Assembly (NCBI GenBank): GCA_030038535.1
Contig: JASHSV010000307.1
Coordinates: forward strand, 33,389 to 97,388
Length of the DNA: 64,000 nucleotides
Reading direction: 5' to 3'
Source: Candidatus Acidiferrales bacterium
GTDB lineage: Bacteria; Acidobacteriota; Terriglobia; Acidiferrales; UBA7541
Positions 41,797 to 63,552 of this stretch are shown here, one piece after another. The notes under the pieces are model-generated. The model saw only the letters and a program-made list of their open reading frames with translations. It was not told where the DNA came from and did not search any database. Position numbers and translations under genes: made by a program. The first letter of the stretch is position 1. Every line of letters begins with the position of its first letter.

Positions 41797-42672
41797 ATGC
41801 AGACGGAAATGGAAATCACGTATCTGGGGGCGTTCGTTGCAGGATTGATATCGTTTCTTTCGCCGTGCGTGCTGCCGCTGGTGCCGGGCTATATCTCGAT
41901 GCTTTCGGGCATCGGAGTGGACCGGCTGCGGAAGGGCGAAGGGGCCCAGAGCACGCTGCTGTGGAGCGCGCTTTGCTTCGTGGTGGGTTTCTCCGCCGTG
42001 TTCGTTTCGCTGGGCGCAGGCGCCACGACGGTGGGGCAATTTCTTCGCGCGAACCGCGGCGCGCTGGCGCCGGTGGCGGGAGCGGTGATCGTGCTGTTTG
42101 GGCTGCACCTGGTGGGACTGCTCGTAAAAATCCCCATTCGGATCGGGCTGATTGCGGGCTGTGTGCTCGTTGTCGCGGGCTTCGCGCTCCTGGAACTCCA
42201 ACCCAGCGCGCGCGCCGGCCTGCAGCCGATCCAGCTTTTTTCCGCGTCCGTGATTTTTCTGGCCGGGCCGTATTTTTCCGGCCGGCTGACGCGCGACGTA
42301 CATCTGCGCAACGTGGGCGGGCAGCCGGGAATGGTGGGGGCGTTCCTGCTGGGGTTCGCCTTCGCCTTCGGATGGACGCCGTGCATCGGGCCGATTCTGG
42401 GGACCGTGCTGGTGATTGCGGGCGCGCAGGAAACCAAGATGCAGGGCGTGCTGCTGCTGCTGGCCTATTCGGCGGGGCTGGCTATCCCGTTCCTGGTGAC
42501 CGCGCTGGGGGTGAGCCAGTTCATGGATTTCTACCAGCGCTTCCGGAAGCACCTGCACGCGGTGGAAGTGCTGAGCGGGGTTCTGCTGCTCGTGGTGGGC
42601 TCGCTGATTTTCACGAATCACTTCACGTGGTTGTCGGGTAAACTCGGATTTTTGCAGCAATTCGCGCGCTGA
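41797..42672 (+). CDS. ccdA: Cytochrome c biogenesis / DsbD-beta-like transmembrane protein CcdA
   Basis: 291 aa; AGLISFLSPCVLPLVPGYISMLSG; GFAFAFGWTPCIGPILG; both conserved Cys present. Confidence 0.94.
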   Translation: MQTEMEITYLGAFVAGLISFLSPCVLPLVPGYISMLSGIGVDRLRKGEGAQSTLLWSALCFVVGFSAVFVSLGAGATTVGQFLRANRGALAPVAGAVIVLFGLHLVGLLVKIPIRIGLIAGCVLVVAGFALLELQPSARAGLQPIQLFSASVIFLAGPYFSGRLTRDVHLRNVGGQPGMVGAFLLGFAFAFGWTPCIGPILGTVLVIAGAQETKMQGVLLLLAYSAGLAIPFLVTALGVSQFMDFYQRFRKHLHAVEVLSGVLLLVVGSLIFTNHFTWLSGKLGFLQQFAR

Positions 42673-45993: not shown

Positions 45994-46430
45994 GTGCGAG
46001 CCTCGTCCTCCAGTCTACGGAAAAGTCTAGCATCCTAACCGGGCAAACATGGGGCCTCAACGCCAGGACTCGGAGCGAGAGGGTCGACACCGGCTGGAGT
46101 CTGGCAGGAAGCCGGCTTTCTCTGTTCCGCTATCAGCCTGGGGAGCACGCGAAGGCCATCGGAGAGATCTGGACTGCTCACGTCTGCGGCAGAAGGCGCT
46201 CTCGTTCGGCGATGTGGCGCATGTTCCATCCCAGCAACGATGAGCCTTGACCCCTTCGGAAACGCCCCGTTATAGTCCCAAACTGCGACGTACTCGAAAT
46301 CGAGCCGGCACCGTCGTGAACGAAGCGCGGCGGGAAAGGTGGAGTGCGTCCCTATTCACGACAAGGTCGGGGTGTCTGTGCATTTGGGCGCAGGCGCGCC
46401 GAGAAGGCTTTTTTCCGGACGAGTGAAACC

Positions 46431-49400
46431 GTGGAAGTGCAGGAAAGCACCGTATCTCTGGCGCTGTTCATGGCCGCAGCGTTTACCGGCCTCTTCTTCG
46501 GCTTCCTTTACGGGCTGAAGCGGCAGGTGTATCTGCTGTGGTGGGCAGCGGGATGGGGCGCACTCGCGCTCTATGCGCTGCCGCGCGCGGCCGAATACTG
46601 GCTGGGCAGCGGCGCTTGGGAAGACCCGGTGAGCGCCTGCATGCTGGGCGGCGCGGCGCTGCTGTTCGGGCTGGGTGCGCAGCGTTACGCCGGCACGCCG
46701 CTGGCCAAAACGGAAGCGGCCATTTCCGCGGTAATCCTAGCGGCCTGGGCCGGCGTGGTGTACCTCAAGTGGCTCTCCGTCTCGGCCTCGCTGGTGAGCG
46801 GCGTGCTCTTTCTCTACGTCGCGCTGACGTTCTGGAAAGAAGGGCGCAAGCAGCAGTCGTATCCGGACCTGTTCCTGACCGGCGCGTTTTTCCTGTGGGG
46901 CGCCGTGCTGGCGGTGAGCGCCATCTGGGAGGGCCTGGCGGAGTGGCTGAACTCGGAAGTGCGCCTGCTGTTCGTTGTGCCGCAACTGCTGATTGCGGCG
47001 CTGATGGTGATGGCGCTCTACGAGGAGGAGAAGCGCCGGGTCGAGCGCAACATGCTGGCGCTTTCGAACCTGAACCTGGCGACCTCCGGGTTCGTGGGCG
47101 GCGAAATCCAGCGGATGCTGGCACAGGCGCTCGACCGGGTGCTGAACGTCGCGCGCATCCAGATGGGCGCGCTCTTTCTGCATCACGGCGACCCGCTGGG
47201 GCCGCGGTCTGTGATCGCGGCGGGATTGAGCGACGCGTTCTGCGCCTCGATCCAGGAAGAAAAGCTGGACGATTACCAGGTACAACTGGTGAAGCGCTTG
47301 GGCGGGCTCGTGGTGTTGCGCGATCTGACGCGCGGCGCGTCGTGGGCGCCGCTGGAGCGCGAGGAAAATTTCAAGCGCTTCCGCGAACTGGCGCTGGCGG
47401 AGGGAATCCGCACGCTGGCGGGAATCAGCCTGCAAGCCAAAGAAAAAGTCTTTGGATTGCTGCTGCTGGGCGGCACGGATAACCGCAGCTTCACGCCCGC
47501 GGAGCTGCGGCTGCTCCTGGCGCTGGGCCACCAGATCGGTATGGCTATCGAGAACAGCTACCTGATCCAGCAGACCGCCCGGCGCACCGAAGAGCTGCAC
47601 ACGCTCAACGAAATAGGGCGTGTGTTCAGCTCCACGCTGGACCTCGAGGAGCTGTTCAATCACATCTTCACGGAAATGCAGCGGCTGTTCGACGTGAGCA
47701 ACTTCTTCATCACCATCCACGAAACGAAGACGGCGCAGATCCGCTACGAGGTGGAAATCCTGGACAGCAAGCGGCTGCCGCGGCGCAAGCGGCCGGTGGG
47801 CAAGCACCTGACGGAATACATCATCGAGACGCGCCAGCCTCTGCTGATCCGCGAACGGCTGGAGGACGAACTGAAGCGGCTCGGGCTGGAAGGCTTGCTG
47901 CCGCAGATGAAGTGCTTTTGCGCTGTGCCGCTGATCCTTTACAACCGGGCCATCGGCGTGCTGGGCGTGCACAGCCCGCAGGAGCGCGCCTTCGACGAGG
48001 GTCACCTGGAGCTGCTCCGCGTGCTGGCCAGCGAAGCGGGCATCGCCATGGAAAACGCGCGGCTCTTCGAAGAGGAGCGGAAGAAGGCGCGGCACCTGTT
48101 GCTGCTGAACAATGTGTCGCGGCACGCCATCACCACGCTCGATCCCGACGCGCTGCTGGGGAAAATGACGGCGGAGATGGAAAGTGCGCTGGTGTACGAC
48201 CACGTGGGCATCGCTCTGCTGGACTACGCGACCAAAGAAGTGGTGGTTCACGCCGAGGGCGGGCGGCGCACAGGGGCGAAGGGCAGACGCATTCCCTTCG
48301 ACCACGGGCTGCTCGGCCACGTGGCGCGCAGCGGACAGATGGTCTCCGTGCACGACGTGGCGGGCAGCGGAATTCCCTCCGTTCTGCCCGATTCGGTGTC
48401 GGCCATCGGGTTCCCGCTGATTTATGCGGACCAGTTGCTGGGCGTGCTCTACGTAGAGACGTCTACGGCTTGGGACTTCACGGACGACGAAATTACGCTG
48501 CTGCAAACGCTCACGGACCAGATCTCGGGCGCGCTGCACAACGCGCTCACCTTCCAGCGCGCGCAGGAACAGGCCATCACCGACGGGCTGACCGGCGTGA
48601 AAACGCACCGCTTCTTCATGGAGGCGCTCTCGGTGGAATGGAAGCGGTCCACGCGCGCGGGCCGGCCGTTCGCGCTCGTGCTGATGGACCTGGACCGCTT
48701 CAAATTCGTCAACGATTTCTACGGGCACCTGGAGGGCGACGTGGTGCTCCAGCGCGTGGGCAAAATCCTGGAGCAGAGCTGCCGGCGGTCCGACGTGGTG
48801 GCGCGCTACGGCGGCGACGAGTTCGTGATCCTGATGCCGGAAACCAACGTGGACCAGGCGCGCCAATTGGGCGGCAAACTGCGCGCCTCGGTGGCTTCCG
48901 ATCCCATGCTTCGCGAGAAAAACATCTCCGCGAGCTTCGGAATTGCCGCGTTTCCGCTGCACGGCTCGACGCCGCAGGAGCTGATTCAGGTGGCGGATGC
49001 CTCGATGTACGTTTCGAAACACCAGGGCGGCAACGCCGTCTCCACCGCAGACCATTACGACACGGACGAAGCGCGAAAGTGGAAGCGGGACGTGCTGGAA
49101 GCCTACCTGGGCGTCGAACTCAAGCGGCAATTCACCACCGGGCCGCAGGCCTTCGAGGAAATCCTGCGGCGGCTGCAGCACTTCGTACAGTCGCTGAGCG
49201 GAAATTTGATGGCCGGGACGGACAACGGCGAGGAACTCGGCGGCCCGCAGGCGCCCATGACCTCGGCGGTGATCGAAACGCTCACTCAGCTTTCCCTCGC
49301 CATCGATGCGAAGGATCCCTACACGCAGGGGCACTCGCAAAAAGTGTCGGCTTACGCGGTGATGCTGGCCCAGTCCATAGGCATGACGCCGCACGACATT

Positions 49401-49901
49401 GAAGAAATCCGTCTGGCCGGGCTGTTGCACGACGTGGGCAAAGTGGGCATCCCCGAAGGCATCCTGAACAAGGCGGGCCCGCTCGATACCGACGAGTGGG
49501 AAGTGATGAAGACGCATGCGACGCTGGGAGCCCAGTTGCTGGATCCCCTGTGCGACGTGCCCAGCTCCGCAGGCGATCCGCAGACCGTGGCCAGCGTGAG
49601 GAAAATGGCGGGCCGCTTGCGCGAGATGGTCCTGCATCACCACGAGTTCTTCGACGGCTCCGGCTATCCGGCCGGGCTGGCGGGAACGGAAATCCCGCTG
49701 GGCGCGCGCATCATCGGCCTGGTGGATTCCTACGACACGATCACCAGCGACCGGATGTACAAGCGCGGTCGCACCACGCGCGAGGCCATGGCCGAGCTGG
49801 AGCGCTGCGGCGCCGCGCAGTTCGATCCCGATCTGGTCAAGACGTTCCTCGAAGTTCTGCGGCGGCTGCCGCAGCCGCAGGTGAGCACGCGCGAGCGATA
49901 G
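46431..49901 (+). CDS. Membrane protein with GAF domains, GGDEF and HD-GYP domains (c-di-GMP signalling)
   Basis: N-terminal TMs; GAF-like regions; ARYGGDEFVILMPE; LLHDVGKVGIPEGIL...HHHEFFDGSGYPAGL. GTG start at 46431 proposed. Confidence 0.92.
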   Translation: MEVQESTVSLALFMAAAFTGLFFGFLYGLKRQVYLLWWAAGWGALALYALPRAAEYWLGSGAWEDPVSACMLGGAALLFGLGAQRYAGTPLAKTEAAISAVILAAWAGVVYLKWLSVSASLVSGVLFLYVALTFWKEGRKQQSYPDLFLTGAFFLWGAVLAVSAIWEGLAEWLNSEVRLLFVVPQLLIAALMVMALYEEEKRRVERNMLALSNLNLATSGFVGGEIQRMLAQALDRVLNVARIQMGALFLHHGDPLGPRSVIAAGLSDAFCASIQEEKLDDYQVQLVKRLGGLVVLRDLTRGASWAPLEREENFKRFRELALAEGIRTLAGISLQAKEKVFGLLLLGGTDNRSFTPAELRLLLALGHQIGMAIENSYLIQQTARRTEELHTLNEIGRVFSSTLDLEELFNHIFTEMQRLFDVSNFFITIHETKTAQIRYEVEILDSKRLPRRKRPVGKHLTEYIIETRQPLLIRERLEDELKRLGLEGLLPQMKCFCAVPLILYNRAIGVLGVHSPQERAFDEGHLELLRVLASEAGIAMENARLFEEERKKARHLLLLNNVSRHAITTLDPDALLGKMTAEMESALVYDHVGIALLDYATKEVVVHAEGGRRTGAKGRRIPFDHGLLGHVARSGQMVSVHDVAGSGIPSVLPDSVSAIGFPLIYADQLLGVLYVETSTAWDFTDDEITLLQTLTDQISGALHNALTFQRAQEQAITDGLTGVKTHRFFMEALSVEWKRSTRAGRPFALVLMDLDRFKFVNDFYGHLEGDVVLQRVGKILEQSCRRSDVVARYGGDEFVILMPETNVDQARQLGGKLRASVASDPMLREKNISASFGIAAFPLHGSTPQELIQVADASMYVSKHQGGNAVSTADHYDTDEARKWKRDVLEAYLGVELKRQFTTGPQAFEEILRRLQHFVQSLSGNLMAGTDNGEELGGPQAPMTSAVIETLTQLSLAIDAKDPYTQGHSQKVSAYAVMLAQSIGMTPHDIEEIRLAGLLHDVGKVGIPEGILNKAGPLDTDEWEVMKTHATLGAQLLDPLCDVPSSAGDPQTVASVRKMAGRLREMVLHHHEFFDGSGYPAGLAGTEIPLGARIIGLVDSYDTITSDRMYKRGRTTREAMAELERCGAAQFDPDLVKTFLEVLRRLPQPQVSTRER

Positions 49902-55006: not shown

Positions 55007-56902
55007 ATGTTTAGCTCCATGAGCACTGCCACAGCTTCGTCACTGCCATTCTCGCGGTCCACGGCCGTGCTCATCCTGCTGGCCCTGGCCCTGCTGATTT
55101 ACGTGGGCAATGCGGCGCAGCCCGGCCTGCTCGACGACGCGGATGGGGGCCATGCCGTCGCTTCCCAGGAAATGTTGCGCACGGGCGACTGGGTCGTCCT
55201 GCACATCAACGGGGTCCGCTGGATGGAAAAGCCTCCGCTGCATTATTGGGCCGTGGCGGTCAGTTACCTGCTGCTGGGCGAGAGCGCTTTCTCCACCCGC
55301 CTGCCGCTGGCCCTGGCCGTGGCGGGCCTAGTGGTCATGGTTTACGTCTTCGGCCGGCGGTTCTTCGGCGACCGCGCGGGCTTCTATGCCGGCCTGGTGA
55401 TGTGCACGAGCATCGGCACTTACATGTTCACTCGCATCATGATTCCCGAGGCGATTTACTCGCTGGAATTCACTGCGGCGTTTTACTTGTTTCTGCTCGC
55501 CTGGACCGGCGCGATTTCCCTCCGCAAGGGCTGTTGGAGCGTCGCCGCGCTGTGCGCCCTCGCGGTGCTGACGCGCGCCCTGATCGGCATTGTCTTTCCC
55601 GCGGCCATTCTCACCATCTTCGTCCTTCTTACTGGGCGAAAGTCCCCGGCCTTCACGAAGTGGCGGGAAGTCCCCTTTTTCTCCAGCCTGCTGATCCTCC
55701 TGGCCATCGCCGCGCCGTGGCACATCATTGCCGGCATTCGTGCGTGGCGTCCTGATGCCCCCGGGTTCTTCTGGTACTACTTCATCAACGAACAGGTGCT
55801 TCGCGCGCTCGGGTACCGTTACCCGCACGATTTCTCCGCCGTGCCTCTGGGTATCTGGTGGGCGGCCCACCTGATCTGGTGGTTTCCCTGGAGCGTCTTT
55901 CTGCCGCTCGCGTTTCGCAGGCTGCCGCGGCCGCGCGACTGGCGCCGGCTGGACGCGCCGGGGATGGCGCTTCTGTTCGTGTGCGTCTGGGCGGGCTTTA
56001 TCCTTTTCTTCTTTTCCCTCACCGCCAGCCGCATGGAGTACTACAGCTTCAGCGCCTGGCCAGCCGTGGCCCTGCTGATTGGACGCGGCATTGCCCTCGC
56101 CGAGCAGGAGTCCGAAAAGTGGATGCGCCGCCTGCAGGCCGGAGTCGCCGTGGCTGGCGCGCTCGCCGCCGCCATTCTTGGCTGGCTTGTGTGGGTCTCG
56201 CGGAACGTCCAGGTGCACGGAGATATCAGCGATCTGCTGCAATTGAAGGAGCTGAATTTCTACACCGTGGCCATGGCCAGCTTCTTTGATCTCACCACGC
56301 GCGCATTTGCGTTTCTGCGCGAGCCTTCCATGCTGGCCGCCGGGCTGTTCCTGTTCGGCTTTACCGGCGTTTACCTTCTTCGCCGCCGCGGCTGGGTGCT
56401 GGGCGCCAATATCGCGCTTTCGTTGGTGATGGCCGCGTTCTTTTTTGTGGCCAATCTCGCCTTCCAGGTCTTTGAGCCGCACATGTCGTCCAAGCGCCTG
56501 GCGGACGACCTGCTGCGCTACCTCAAGCCCGACGACGCCGTGGCCATTTACGGTGAGTATTACGGCGGGTGCGCGCTCGGCTTCTACCTGCACCGCCAGG
56601 TGCTGCTCTATAACGGCCAGTATCAGGGTCTGGAATTCGGTTCGTACTACCACGATGCCCCGAAGATTTTCATGGACGATCACAGCTTCCCGCAGCTTTG
56701 GAACGGCTCGCGGCGCGTCTTCCTGTTCGCGCCAAAAGGCGAGACCCAGGAGGTTATCGTCCGGCTGCCCCGGGATTCGAGCTACATCCTGGCCGAAAGT
56801 GGCGGAAAGGTGATTTTCGTCAACCAGCCGCTCACCCCCGACCAGCCTTCGCTCGCGCAGCTTCAGGAACGCGGCACGCTTCCCGCCGTGCTGCGGCCCT
56901 AG
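55007..56902 (+). CDS. ArnT/PMT-like membrane glycosyltransferase
   Basis: 631 aa multi-TM; GLLDDADGGHAVASQEMLRTGDWVVLHINGVRWMEKPPLHYWAVAVSYLLLGESAFSTRLP. Alternative start 55019. Confidence 0.9.
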   Translation: MFSSMSTATASSLPFSRSTAVLILLALALLIYVGNAAQPGLLDDADGGHAVASQEMLRTGDWVVLHINGVRWMEKPPLHYWAVAVSYLLLGESAFSTRLPLALAVAGLVVMVYVFGRRFFGDRAGFYAGLVMCTSIGTYMFTRIMIPEAIYSLEFTAAFYLFLLAWTGAISLRKGCWSVAALCALAVLTRALIGIVFPAAILTIFVLLTGRKSPAFTKWREVPFFSSLLILLAIAAPWHIIAGIRAWRPDAPGFFWYYFINEQVLRALGYRYPHDFSAVPLGIWWAAHLIWWFPWSVFLPLAFRRLPRPRDWRRLDAPGMALLFVCVWAGFILFFFSLTASRMEYYSFSAWPAVALLIGRGIALAEQESEKWMRRLQAGVAVAGALAAAILGWLVWVSRNVQVHGDISDLLQLKELNFYTVAMASFFDLTTRAFAFLREPSMLAAGLFLFGFTGVYLLRRRGWVLGANIALSLVMAAFFFVANLAFQVFEPHMSSKRLADDLLRYLKPDDAVAIYGEYYGGCALGFYLHRQVLLYNGQYQGLEFGSYYHDAPKIFMDDHSFPQLWNGSRRVFLFAPKGETQEVIVRLPRDSSYILAESGGKVIFVNQPLTPDQPSLAQLQERGTLPAVLRP

Positions 56903-61271: not shown

Positions 61272-61563
61272 GCGGCGGTTCTCCTTCTCCACACTCCGGT
61301 ACGGGCGACACTGGCCTTCGACTGGCCTTCAGGACAGTTGTTCCGCCGTCTTCTCGATGCGTAAGCTGGTAATGCGTCCGCAGGCGATGGATCGCCGTGG
61401 AACTTGAAATTCGTCCGGCCCCTCCTGCCTCGTTTCGAGGGAAGCGCACCTCCTTCTCTGCAACCACCGCTTGCTCGACGGCGATTGGGAATTGGACCGG
61501 CCCCTTTCGGAAGGGGAGCGAGGCGAAGGGCGGCCGGCCGTCCTTCGCAGCGGGGAAGCAGCG

Positions 61564-63552
61564 ATGTTACGACTGATGTTGATGAGCGCGGAAGCGCCCT
61601 ACTTGCCCGGCGGGTATTGCTACCTGTGGGACGGGCCGCTCGTGTGGCTGCACGTGACCGCGGATCTAATCGTGTCGGTCGCCTTCGTCTTGATTCCGGT
61701 TGCTCTCCTGTGGATCGTGGGCAAACGCCGCGATGTGCCTTTCCAGGGTCTGGTGCTCTGGTTCAGCGCGTTTCTGGTTGCGTGCGCCGCGACGAATTTT
61801 CTCGGCGTCTGGAATCTGTGGCACGACGACTACTGGCTGGCCGCCGCCACCAAGGCCGTTGCCGCCATCACCGCCGCTGCCAGCGCGGGTTATCTGGTGC
61901 TGCTGCTTCCCAAAGCCGTCACGCTGCCCAGTCCGCGGCAAATGAAGGAAGCCAACGATCGGCTCGCGCAGGAAGTCGCCGGGCGCGAGCGCGTGATGAA
62001 GCAGCTCCAGACGCTCAACCAGGAGCTTGAAAGCCGCGTCCACAGCCGCACCGAAGAGCTGGAAGTCGCACTGCGCGAGATGCAGAAGGAGAATGCCGAG
62101 CGCCGGACCATCGAAGGGGCCCTCCGTCGGTGGGAAGCCATCTTCGCCCACGCGGGGTGGGGCGTGGCGCTTGCCAATCCTGAAAATTACCGTCTGGACG
62201 CAGTGAACCCCGCTTTCGCCGCCATGCACGGGTGGTCGGCCGATGAGCTCACCGGCAAATCCCTGGAAGAGGTGCTCGCCCCCGAGTGGCGCGCGCGGCT
62301 CCCCGAAATGGCGCACATCGCCGACGAGCTCGGCCACCACATCTACGAGGCGGAGCACATACGCAAAAACGGCTCGCGCTTTCTCGTGCTCACAGACCTG
62401 GTGGCCTGCAAGGACGCCATGGGGCGCGTCCTCTATCGCGCCGCCAATTTCCAGGACATCACCGACCGCAAGCGCGCGGAAACCGAGCGCCAGCAGGCCA
62501 CCGAACGGCTCACCCATCTTCTCCGTGAGACCGAAGAGAAGAGCCGGCAGATCGAAATGATCAAGCAGATGAGCACCCTGCTGCAGACCTGCGCGAACAC
62601 GCGCGAGGCGTTTGACGTGGTGCGCGAATTTGCCGCCCGGCTGTTTCCCCGCGATTCGGGCGCTCTCTGCCTGCTGAATCCCTCCGTTTCGCTGATGGAG
62701 GCGGTTGCGGTGTGGGGCGAGCGGCCGCCGTGCGAGAGCCTGTTCGCGCCCGAAGACTGCTGGGCCCTGCGCACCGGCCGCGTCCACGTCTCCAGTCCCG
62801 ACGGCGTCGCGCTCCATTGCACGCACGTCTCCGTCGCGCCCGGCGCCAGCTACGTCTGCGTGCCCATGGTCGCACACAACGAATCCATCGGCGTGTTCAG
62901 CGTGCAATGCGGCGAGGCGGAAACCCGCCTGCCACGCGACGAACGCGTCGAAGCGCAGCGCGAACGCGAGCTGCTGGCTTCGAACTTCGCCGCCGATATC
63001 GCCCTGGCCCTCGCCAACCTCCGTTTGCGCGAGACCCTGCGCACCCAGTCCACCCGCGACCCGCTCACCGGCCTCTTCAACCGACGCTATCTCACCGAGT
63101 CGCTCGACCGCGAAGTTCGCCGCGCCGACCGCAACGCGCGCCCGCTGGGAATCGTTATGCTCGACCTCGACCAGTTCAAGCCCTTCAACGACGCGCATGG
63201 TCACGAAGCCGGCGACGCTCTGCTGCGTTCCTTCGGCCGCTTTATCCACAAGAATACGCGGGGCGAAGACATCGCCTGCCGTTACGGCGGCGATGAATTC
63301 GTCATCCTGCTCGTGGACGCCGACTTGGACGTGGCGCGCCGTCGCGCTGAAGAATTGCGCGAGGGGTTCGGCCGGTTGGTTGTGCGCCACCTGAACCAGA
63401 AGCTCGATGCCGTCTCGTTTTCAATGGGCGTGGCCGCATTCCCCGTGCACGGCACCACGTCTGAAGATTTGCTGGCCGCGGCCGACGAAGCGCTCTACGA
63501 CGCCAAGGCCCAGGGGCGTAACCGCGTGAGCATTTACAAGGGGCGCGCATGA
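61564..63552 (+). CDS. Ethylene-receptor-like membrane domain plus coiled coil, PAS, GAF and GGDEF (diguanylate cyclase)
   Basis: GYCYLWDGPLVWLHVTADLIVSVAFVLIPVALLWIVGKRRDVPFQGLVLWFSAFLVACAATNFLGVWNLW; PAS; GAF; CRYGGDEFVILLVDADLDVARRRAEEL. ATG 61564. Confidence 0.9.
   Translation: MLRLMLMSAEAPYLPGGYCYLWDGPLVWLHVTADLIVSVAFVLIPVALLWIVGKRRDVPFQGLVLWFSAFLVACAATNFLGVWNLWHDDYWLAAATKAVAAITAAASAGYLVLLLPKAVTLPSPRQMKEANDRLAQEVAGRERVMKQLQTLNQELESRVHSRTEELEVALREMQKENAERRTIEGALRRWEAIFAHAGWGVALANPENYRLDAVNPAFAAMHGWSADELTGKSLEEVLAPEWRARLPEMAHIADELGHHIYEAEHIRKNGSRFLVLTDLVACKDAMGRVLYRAANFQDITDRKRAETERQQATERLTHLLRETEEKSRQIEMIKQMSTLLQTCANTREAFDVVREFAARLFPRDSGALCLLNPSVSLMEAVAVWGERPPCESLFAPEDCWALRTGRVHVSSPDGVALHCTHVSVAPGASYVCVPMVAHNESIGVFSVQCGEAETRLPRDERVEAQRERELLASNFAADIALALANLRLRETLRTQSTRDPLTGLFNRRYLTESLDREVRRADRNARPLGIVMLDLDQFKPFNDAHGHEAGDALLRSFGRFIHKNTRGEDIACRYGGDEFVILLVDADLDVARRRAEELREGFGRLVVRHLNQKLDAVSFSMGVAAFPVHGTTSEDLLAAADEALYDAKAQGRNRVSIYKGRA

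Follow-up and report, generated by a model that had tools for sequence, protein, structure and literature searches.

An acidobacterial GGDEF protein whose ETR1-type sensor domain has an altered copper site

The DNA analysed here, a stretch of 64 000 nucleotides hereafter called the window, comes from an acidobacterium, and a protein 96% identical to the one described below is encoded in a Candidatus Acidiferrales MAG (L026). The L026 contig belongs to the only other genome of the window's genus in the searched set (G001, the same as G521), and in window and congener alike a PBP1A gene lies upstream of the gene of interest. In the window, this gene starts with an ATG at 61564, its stop codon ends at 63552, and no sigma-70-like promoter was found upstream of it. 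A second c-di-GMP protein of the window, encoded at 46344–49901 (+), combines three GAF domains, a GGDEF domain and an HD_5/HD domain. The features of the locus are as follows:

61552..61558, + strand: ribosome-binding-site-like GGGGAAG, 5 nt upstream of the ATG (read in the sequence)
61564..63552, + strand: gene for a 662-aa ETR1_N-PAS-GAF-GGDEF protein (open reading frame and translation; counterpart in L026)
61639..61923, + strand: ETR1_N membrane sensor domain, aa 26–120 (Pfam PF25487, E 8.6e-27; hydropathy)
61933..62121, + strand: long helix after the membrane domain, aa 124–186 (predicted helix, pLDDT mostly >90)
62125..62487, + strand: PAS domain, aa 188–308 (Pfam PAS_9, TIGR00229)
62602..63012, + strand: GAF domain, aa 347–483 (Pfam PF01590, 3.2e-6)
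63052..63525, + strand: GGDEF domain, aa 497–654 (Pfam PF00990, 1.7e-45)
63259–63270, + strand: I-site RGED (RxxD motif), five residues before GGDEF
63286–63300, + strand: GGDEF motif, aa 575–579, intact

The match to ETR1_N spans model positions 2–96 of 97 and scores 93.7 bits, against a curated cut-off of 27. Three membrane helices (aa 24–54, 60–86 and 91–118), followed by a cytoplasmic signalling part, are predicted from hydropathy peaks and a low-confidence single-sequence model, and the long helix that comes next is likely a coiled coil. The single-sequence structure prediction reached a mean pLDDT of 71.5 and a pTM of 0.34, with values of approximately 54–73 in the membrane part, which make it too weak a basis for pocket geometry; a search for PDB relatives of this part returned chance matches only. 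In the signalling part, DLDQF and FNDAHGHEAGD are found in addition to the GGDEF motif, so that the A-site, metal and substrate motifs are all present. As these motifs and RGED are intact, the protein should, judging from what is known of the family, be an active, product-inhibited cyclase. A Pfam search detected no histidine kinase domain in the 662 residues, and the initial annotation was thus right to describe the output as PAS-GAF-GGDEF with an intact GGDEF motif rather than as a histidine kinase. The PAS-GAF-GGDEF part (aa 210–656) is 46% identical to a receiver-linked regulator from a Rokubacteriota MAG (L027), which has a phospho-receiver input and no membrane sensor, whereas the window protein carries the ETR1_N membrane sensor; this match suggests that the membrane module was added to a cyclase module that already existed.

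We aligned the sensor domain with Arabidopsis ETR1 using MAFFT. The alignment is free of gaps from before Asp25 to past His69, and the sole gap within the domain (three residues in the helix 2–3 loop) is common to bacterial members. I44 and P45, which correspond to Ile35 and Pro36, are both kept. The other positions of the site, read from this alignment, are the following:

61663..61665, + strand: Asp34, equivalent to ETR1 Asp25, kept
61684..61686, + strand: Phe41, equivalent to ETR1 Tyr32, changed
61774..61776, + strand: Leu71, equivalent to ETR1 Ile62, changed
61783..61785, + strand: Cys74, equivalent to ETR1 Cys65 (copper ligand), kept
61795..61797, + strand: Asn78, equivalent to ETR1 His69 (copper ligand), changed (also from the codons; codon AAT)
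61852..61854, + strand: Lys97, equivalent to ETR1 Lys91, kept
61861..61875, + strand: Ala100 and Ala104, equivalent to ETR1 Thr94 and Ser98, both changed

Phe58, Phe61, Thr68, Ala95 and Pro110 are kept as well, and further changes affect Gly66 (G66A), Thr101 (T101S), Ile28 and the His of an N-terminal ‘PHG’ segment, which is lost. The initial annotation had proposed an ungapped alignment to ETR1 residues 25–69, conserved equivalents of Asp25, Ile35, Pro36 and Cys65, a Phe in place of Tyr32 and an Asn in place of His69, all of which the MAFFT alignment confirms, with Asn78 falling at the His69 position; it had not listed I62L, G66A, T94A, S98A, T101S, the loss of the ‘PHG’ His or the retained Lys91 (K97). 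An error of sequencing or assembly at Asn78 was considered and rejected, as the same AAT codon occurs in the congener gene, which carries approximately 140 synonymous differences.

In ETR1, Cys65 and His69 hold Cu(I) and are described as essential ligands (PMC13012798), and in models Asp25 positions His69 and pairs with Lys91, a residue with a role in output (PMC11819568). Seven residues are needed for ethylene binding by ETR1, and bacterial receptors keep all seven (PMC11819568). Three of them (Tyr32, Ile62 and His69) are changed in the window. We take the full set to be residues 25, 32, 35, 36, 62, 65 and 69. Asn is a poor ligand for Cu(I). The window protein shares with Arabidopsis ETR1 the three-helix domain and, within it, Asp25, Ile35, Pro36, Cys65 and Lys91, but differs in the replacement of His69 by Asn, of Tyr32 by Phe, of Ile62 by Leu and of Thr94 and Ser98 by Ala, and in its PAS-GAF-GGDEF output, where ETR1 has GAF, kinase and receiver domains. 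Its ETR1_N domain is of the bacterial type, as in AzoEtr1 of Azospirillum brasilense and SynEtr1 of Synechocystis, and is approximately 40% identical to the A. brasilense domain; however, these two proteins are functional ethylene receptors and histidine kinases in which the seven residues are kept (PMC11819568), whereas the window protein has lost three and ends in a GGDEF domain. By sequence, it belongs both to the ETR1_N family and to the GGDEF cyclase family. Because it lacks the pair of copper ligands, the full binding set and a kinase output, it is not to be filed as an ethylene receptor, and a canonical Cu(I)–ethylene receptor appears very unlikely. In the open-access literature, to which the search was confined, we found no description of an ethylene-type domain fused to a c-di-GMP cyclase, which is weak evidence that there is none, and nothing on ethylene receptors together with Acidobacteria.

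Conservation was gauged on 108 high-scoring ETR1_N members, picked for an intact Cys65/His69 pair. Indeed, Tyr32 (99%), Ile62 (98%), Gly66 (98%) and Ser98 (98%) are so strongly conserved in these members that the changes seen in the window are not attributable to chance; Thr94 (96%), Thr101 (95%), Ile28 (94%) and the ‘PHG’ His (91%) come close. Compared with the same members, the three-helix region of the window protein has gained no replacement His, Cys or Met, which, as far as sequence allows, leaves the initial view of the site as altered intact. His30 and His87 were examined as substitutes near the site and rejected, since both are common in relatives that bear His69 (74% and 31%, respectively) and hence represent no gain.

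We then surveyed ETR1_N domains with PF25487 in approximately 1,740 genome searches and in plasmids. Near the window, the survey covered its relatives and its order (101 and 95 genomes, overlapping) and its phylum (396 sampled); further away, it covered another acidobacterial family (250 sampled), a few single genomes, plasmids and the phyla to which an Acetobacteraceae genome (399), another bacterium (291) and a Chloroflexi genome (201) belong. From the 161 distinct domains obtained, a count that includes related sequences, leans to Acidobacteriota and represents cyanobacteria by plasmids only, 142 have His at position 69. The remaining 19 carry Arg (8), Tyr (3), Gln (3), Asn (3), Ile (1) or Val (1), and the three with Asn are the window gene, its congener and a remote domain (L078) that also has Ser at the Cys65 position. 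Asn is therefore not the usual residue in any sampled ETR1_N subfamily, which again agrees with the site being called altered. Within the order of the window, His is present in all other domains readable at position 69 with the exception of one (L061, Tyr), and all other recognized outputs of ETR1_N proteins are histidine kinases; two domains of this order (L176 and L177) keep His69 and have lost Cys65. Across the family, in counts that ignore relatedness, departures at Tyr32, Ile62, Gly66 and Thr94 accompany the loss of His69, unlike departures at Asp25; a pocket that changes as one unit would give this pattern.

Several other members caught our attention in this survey. Two histidine kinases from the phylum of genome G522 (L127 and L128) keep Cys65 and have Arg at His69, Phe at Tyr32 and Leu at Thr94, and are another altered-site lineage, with a kinase output. 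The reverse of the window's change, Gly at Cys65 with His69 kept, occurs in two acidobacterial ETR1_N kinases that are highly typical in all other respects (L244 and L253). On plasmid pMB03 of Acaryochloris sp. ‘Moss Beach’ (L096, 3345–4174), an IS1 transposase gene lies between the ETR1_N frame and a downstream ATP-binding kinase gene, in what looks like an interrupted receptor. In the window's own family, the ETR1_N domain of L022 (G007:C184) is split over two reading frames with a TAG inside, and is perhaps a pseudogene or an assembly error.

Like the window protein, six acidobacterial proteins (L173, L223, L073, L175, L076 and L237) join ETR1_N to c-di-GMP enzymes, some of them also without His69 (Gln or Tyr) and some with the copper site intact; they differ in being mostly GGDEF-EAL, with or without PAS, in lying elsewhere in the tree and in that none combines Asn with Cys65. 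More generally, other ETR1_N-GGDEF or GGDEF-EAL proteins occur in another acidobacterial family, and several lack Cys65 or His69. A group with GGDEF or GGDEF-EAL output and without Cys65 or His69 comprises L175, L076, L237, L088, L181, L239, L240 and L241, in which the residues are Gln, Tyr or Arg, or Glu/Phe at Cys65. In raw counts, with outputs assigned by home-made profiles that left some proteins without one, Cys65 or His69 is absent from 10 of the 15 GGDEF proteins versus 14 of the 107 kinases (Fisher p 2e-5). That GGDEF output goes with copper-site loss in general was nevertheless rejected, as the tree offers 3–6 independent contrasts, in which the association is not significant; it is a lead only. 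In the tree itself (155 domains, 99 columns, many open forks), from which the columns of residues 32, 65, 66 and 69 were left out, the window pair falls inside a large His69-bearing group, near members of its own family. Its stem measures, at this low resolution, approximately 1.0 change per site and is followed by almost no change.

The two congeners allowed selection to be assessed. Over the ETR1_N domain (aa 25–122), they show 0 amino-acid differences in 98 codons for approximately 29.5 synonymous changes (dS 0.52), and the omega of 0.023 is as low as in PAS and GGDEF. Elsewhere, identity to the congener is 98.3% in PAS, 97.6% in GGDEF, 94.6% in GAF and 67% in the first 24 residues. As controls from the same contig, a polytopic membrane protein (55007–56902) has at least one difference in each hydrophobic 98-residue stretch, and a DsbD_TM protein (41797–42669) has some 98-residue stretches with no difference. 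The constraint on the ETR1_N domain matches that on the most conserved membrane proteins of the contig, and the module is under purifying selection.

This result bears directly on the reading of the sensor as a decaying relic, for which the loss of several conserved residues and the long stem branch would speak. Because the domain is unchanged at dS 0.52, with so low an omega, decay is ruled out, and we regard a relic as scarcely credible; a sensor and a packing module are not separated by this alone. The initial interpretation is supported in part: an altered copper site in an ethylene-receptor-like diguanylate cyclase stands, and the relic that it had also offered does not. The protein may be a receptor for another ligand, or it may contain a ligandless membrane module kept by selection, which the initial annotation had not split from the relic.

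This second reading is the main rival to the one that we favour. The domain would be a membrane anchor and a dimer scaffold of fixed geometry, with PAS and GAF, both present, doing the sensing, or with the cyclase limited only by its I-site. The polar pocket residues Tyr32, His69, Thr94 and Ser98 have indeed been lost with no new candidate metal ligand, and the likeness to L027, which has no membrane domain, indicates that the PAS-GAF-GGDEF part can work with other inputs. However, a plain anchor should tolerate hydrophobic exchange, and none of the 98 residues differs between the congeners; Cys65, Asp25 and Lys91 are, moreover, kept. We consider a scaffold a serious contender, with somewhat less than an even chance of being correct. 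A receptor of weakened or altered type, binding Cu(I) with or without ethylene through Cys74 and Asn78, or through backbone or water in place of His69, would account for the kept Cys65, Asp25, Ile35, Pro36 and Lys91. By established chemistry, Asn would nevertheless serve Cu(I) poorly, and Tyr32, Ile62 and His69 are changed among the seven binding residues. Since both Cys65 and His69 are essential copper ligands in ETR1 (PMC13012798), such a receptor seems improbable.

The reading that we favour, which we hold to be about evenly balanced between right and wrong, is that an ETR1-type sensor lost its copper site, was rebuilt and, fused to a c-di-GMP cyclase, is maintained by selection, with a cue that is likely not copper-bound ethylene. 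It is based on the joint change of the site residues while Asp25, Ile35, Pro36, Cys65 and Lys91 were kept, on the prevalence of His69 in the survey, near kin included, on the contrast between 98 residues without a difference and a poorly kept N-terminus, on the departure of pocket residues together with His69 across the family, on the position of the pair among His69-bearing kinases, with a long stem and then near-stasis, and on an ETR1_N match far above cut-off together with intact cyclase motifs. Against it, selection may act on packing alone, as 98-residue stretches free of change also occur in a second membrane protein of the contig, and the combination of Asn with Cys65 was found in two species only, in a tree of few columns and many open forks.

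According to this rebuilt-sensor reading, the N-terminal three-helix module would descend from a bacterial ethylene-receptor domain, here placed in a membrane-bound diguanylate cyclase. Its copper site and surroundings would have been rebuilt before the split of the genus's two known species, through His69 to Asn, Tyr32 to Phe, Ile62 to Leu, Gly66 to Ala and Thr94/Ser98 to Ala, and ethylene binding by way of Cu(I) at Cys65 and His69 would not be expected. With the Asp25–Lys91 pair, Cys65 and the helix packing kept, the module probably still dimerises, and changes in helix geometry may pass through the long helix to PAS/GAF and on to the GGDEF dimer, thereby setting c-di-GMP production. The cue of the remodelled pocket (Cys74, Asn78 and neighbours) would most likely be other than copper-bound ethylene. 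The simplest reading would be that coupling was retained and the ligand site rebuilt. More tentatively, and with rather less than an even chance, the ETR1 fold may now be a receptor for a different small ligand, in which Cys74–Asn78 replaces the Cys65–His69–Cu(I) arrangement and directly controls c-di-GMP synthesis.

If this last proposal were true, the window protein would be a natural neofunctionalised ethylene receptor, and a wider class of repurposed sensors would include the ETR1_N proteins in which residue 69 is Gln, Arg or Tyr. The ETR1-type receptors characterised in the papers cited here work through a copper–ethylene site. With a relative that has no such site and is nevertheless maintained by selection, nature provides a means of telling the ligand-binding part of the domain from the signal-passing part. 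This relative also links the ETR1_N domain to c-di-GMP in a single polypeptide, and it hints that cues other than ethylene may act through the fold.
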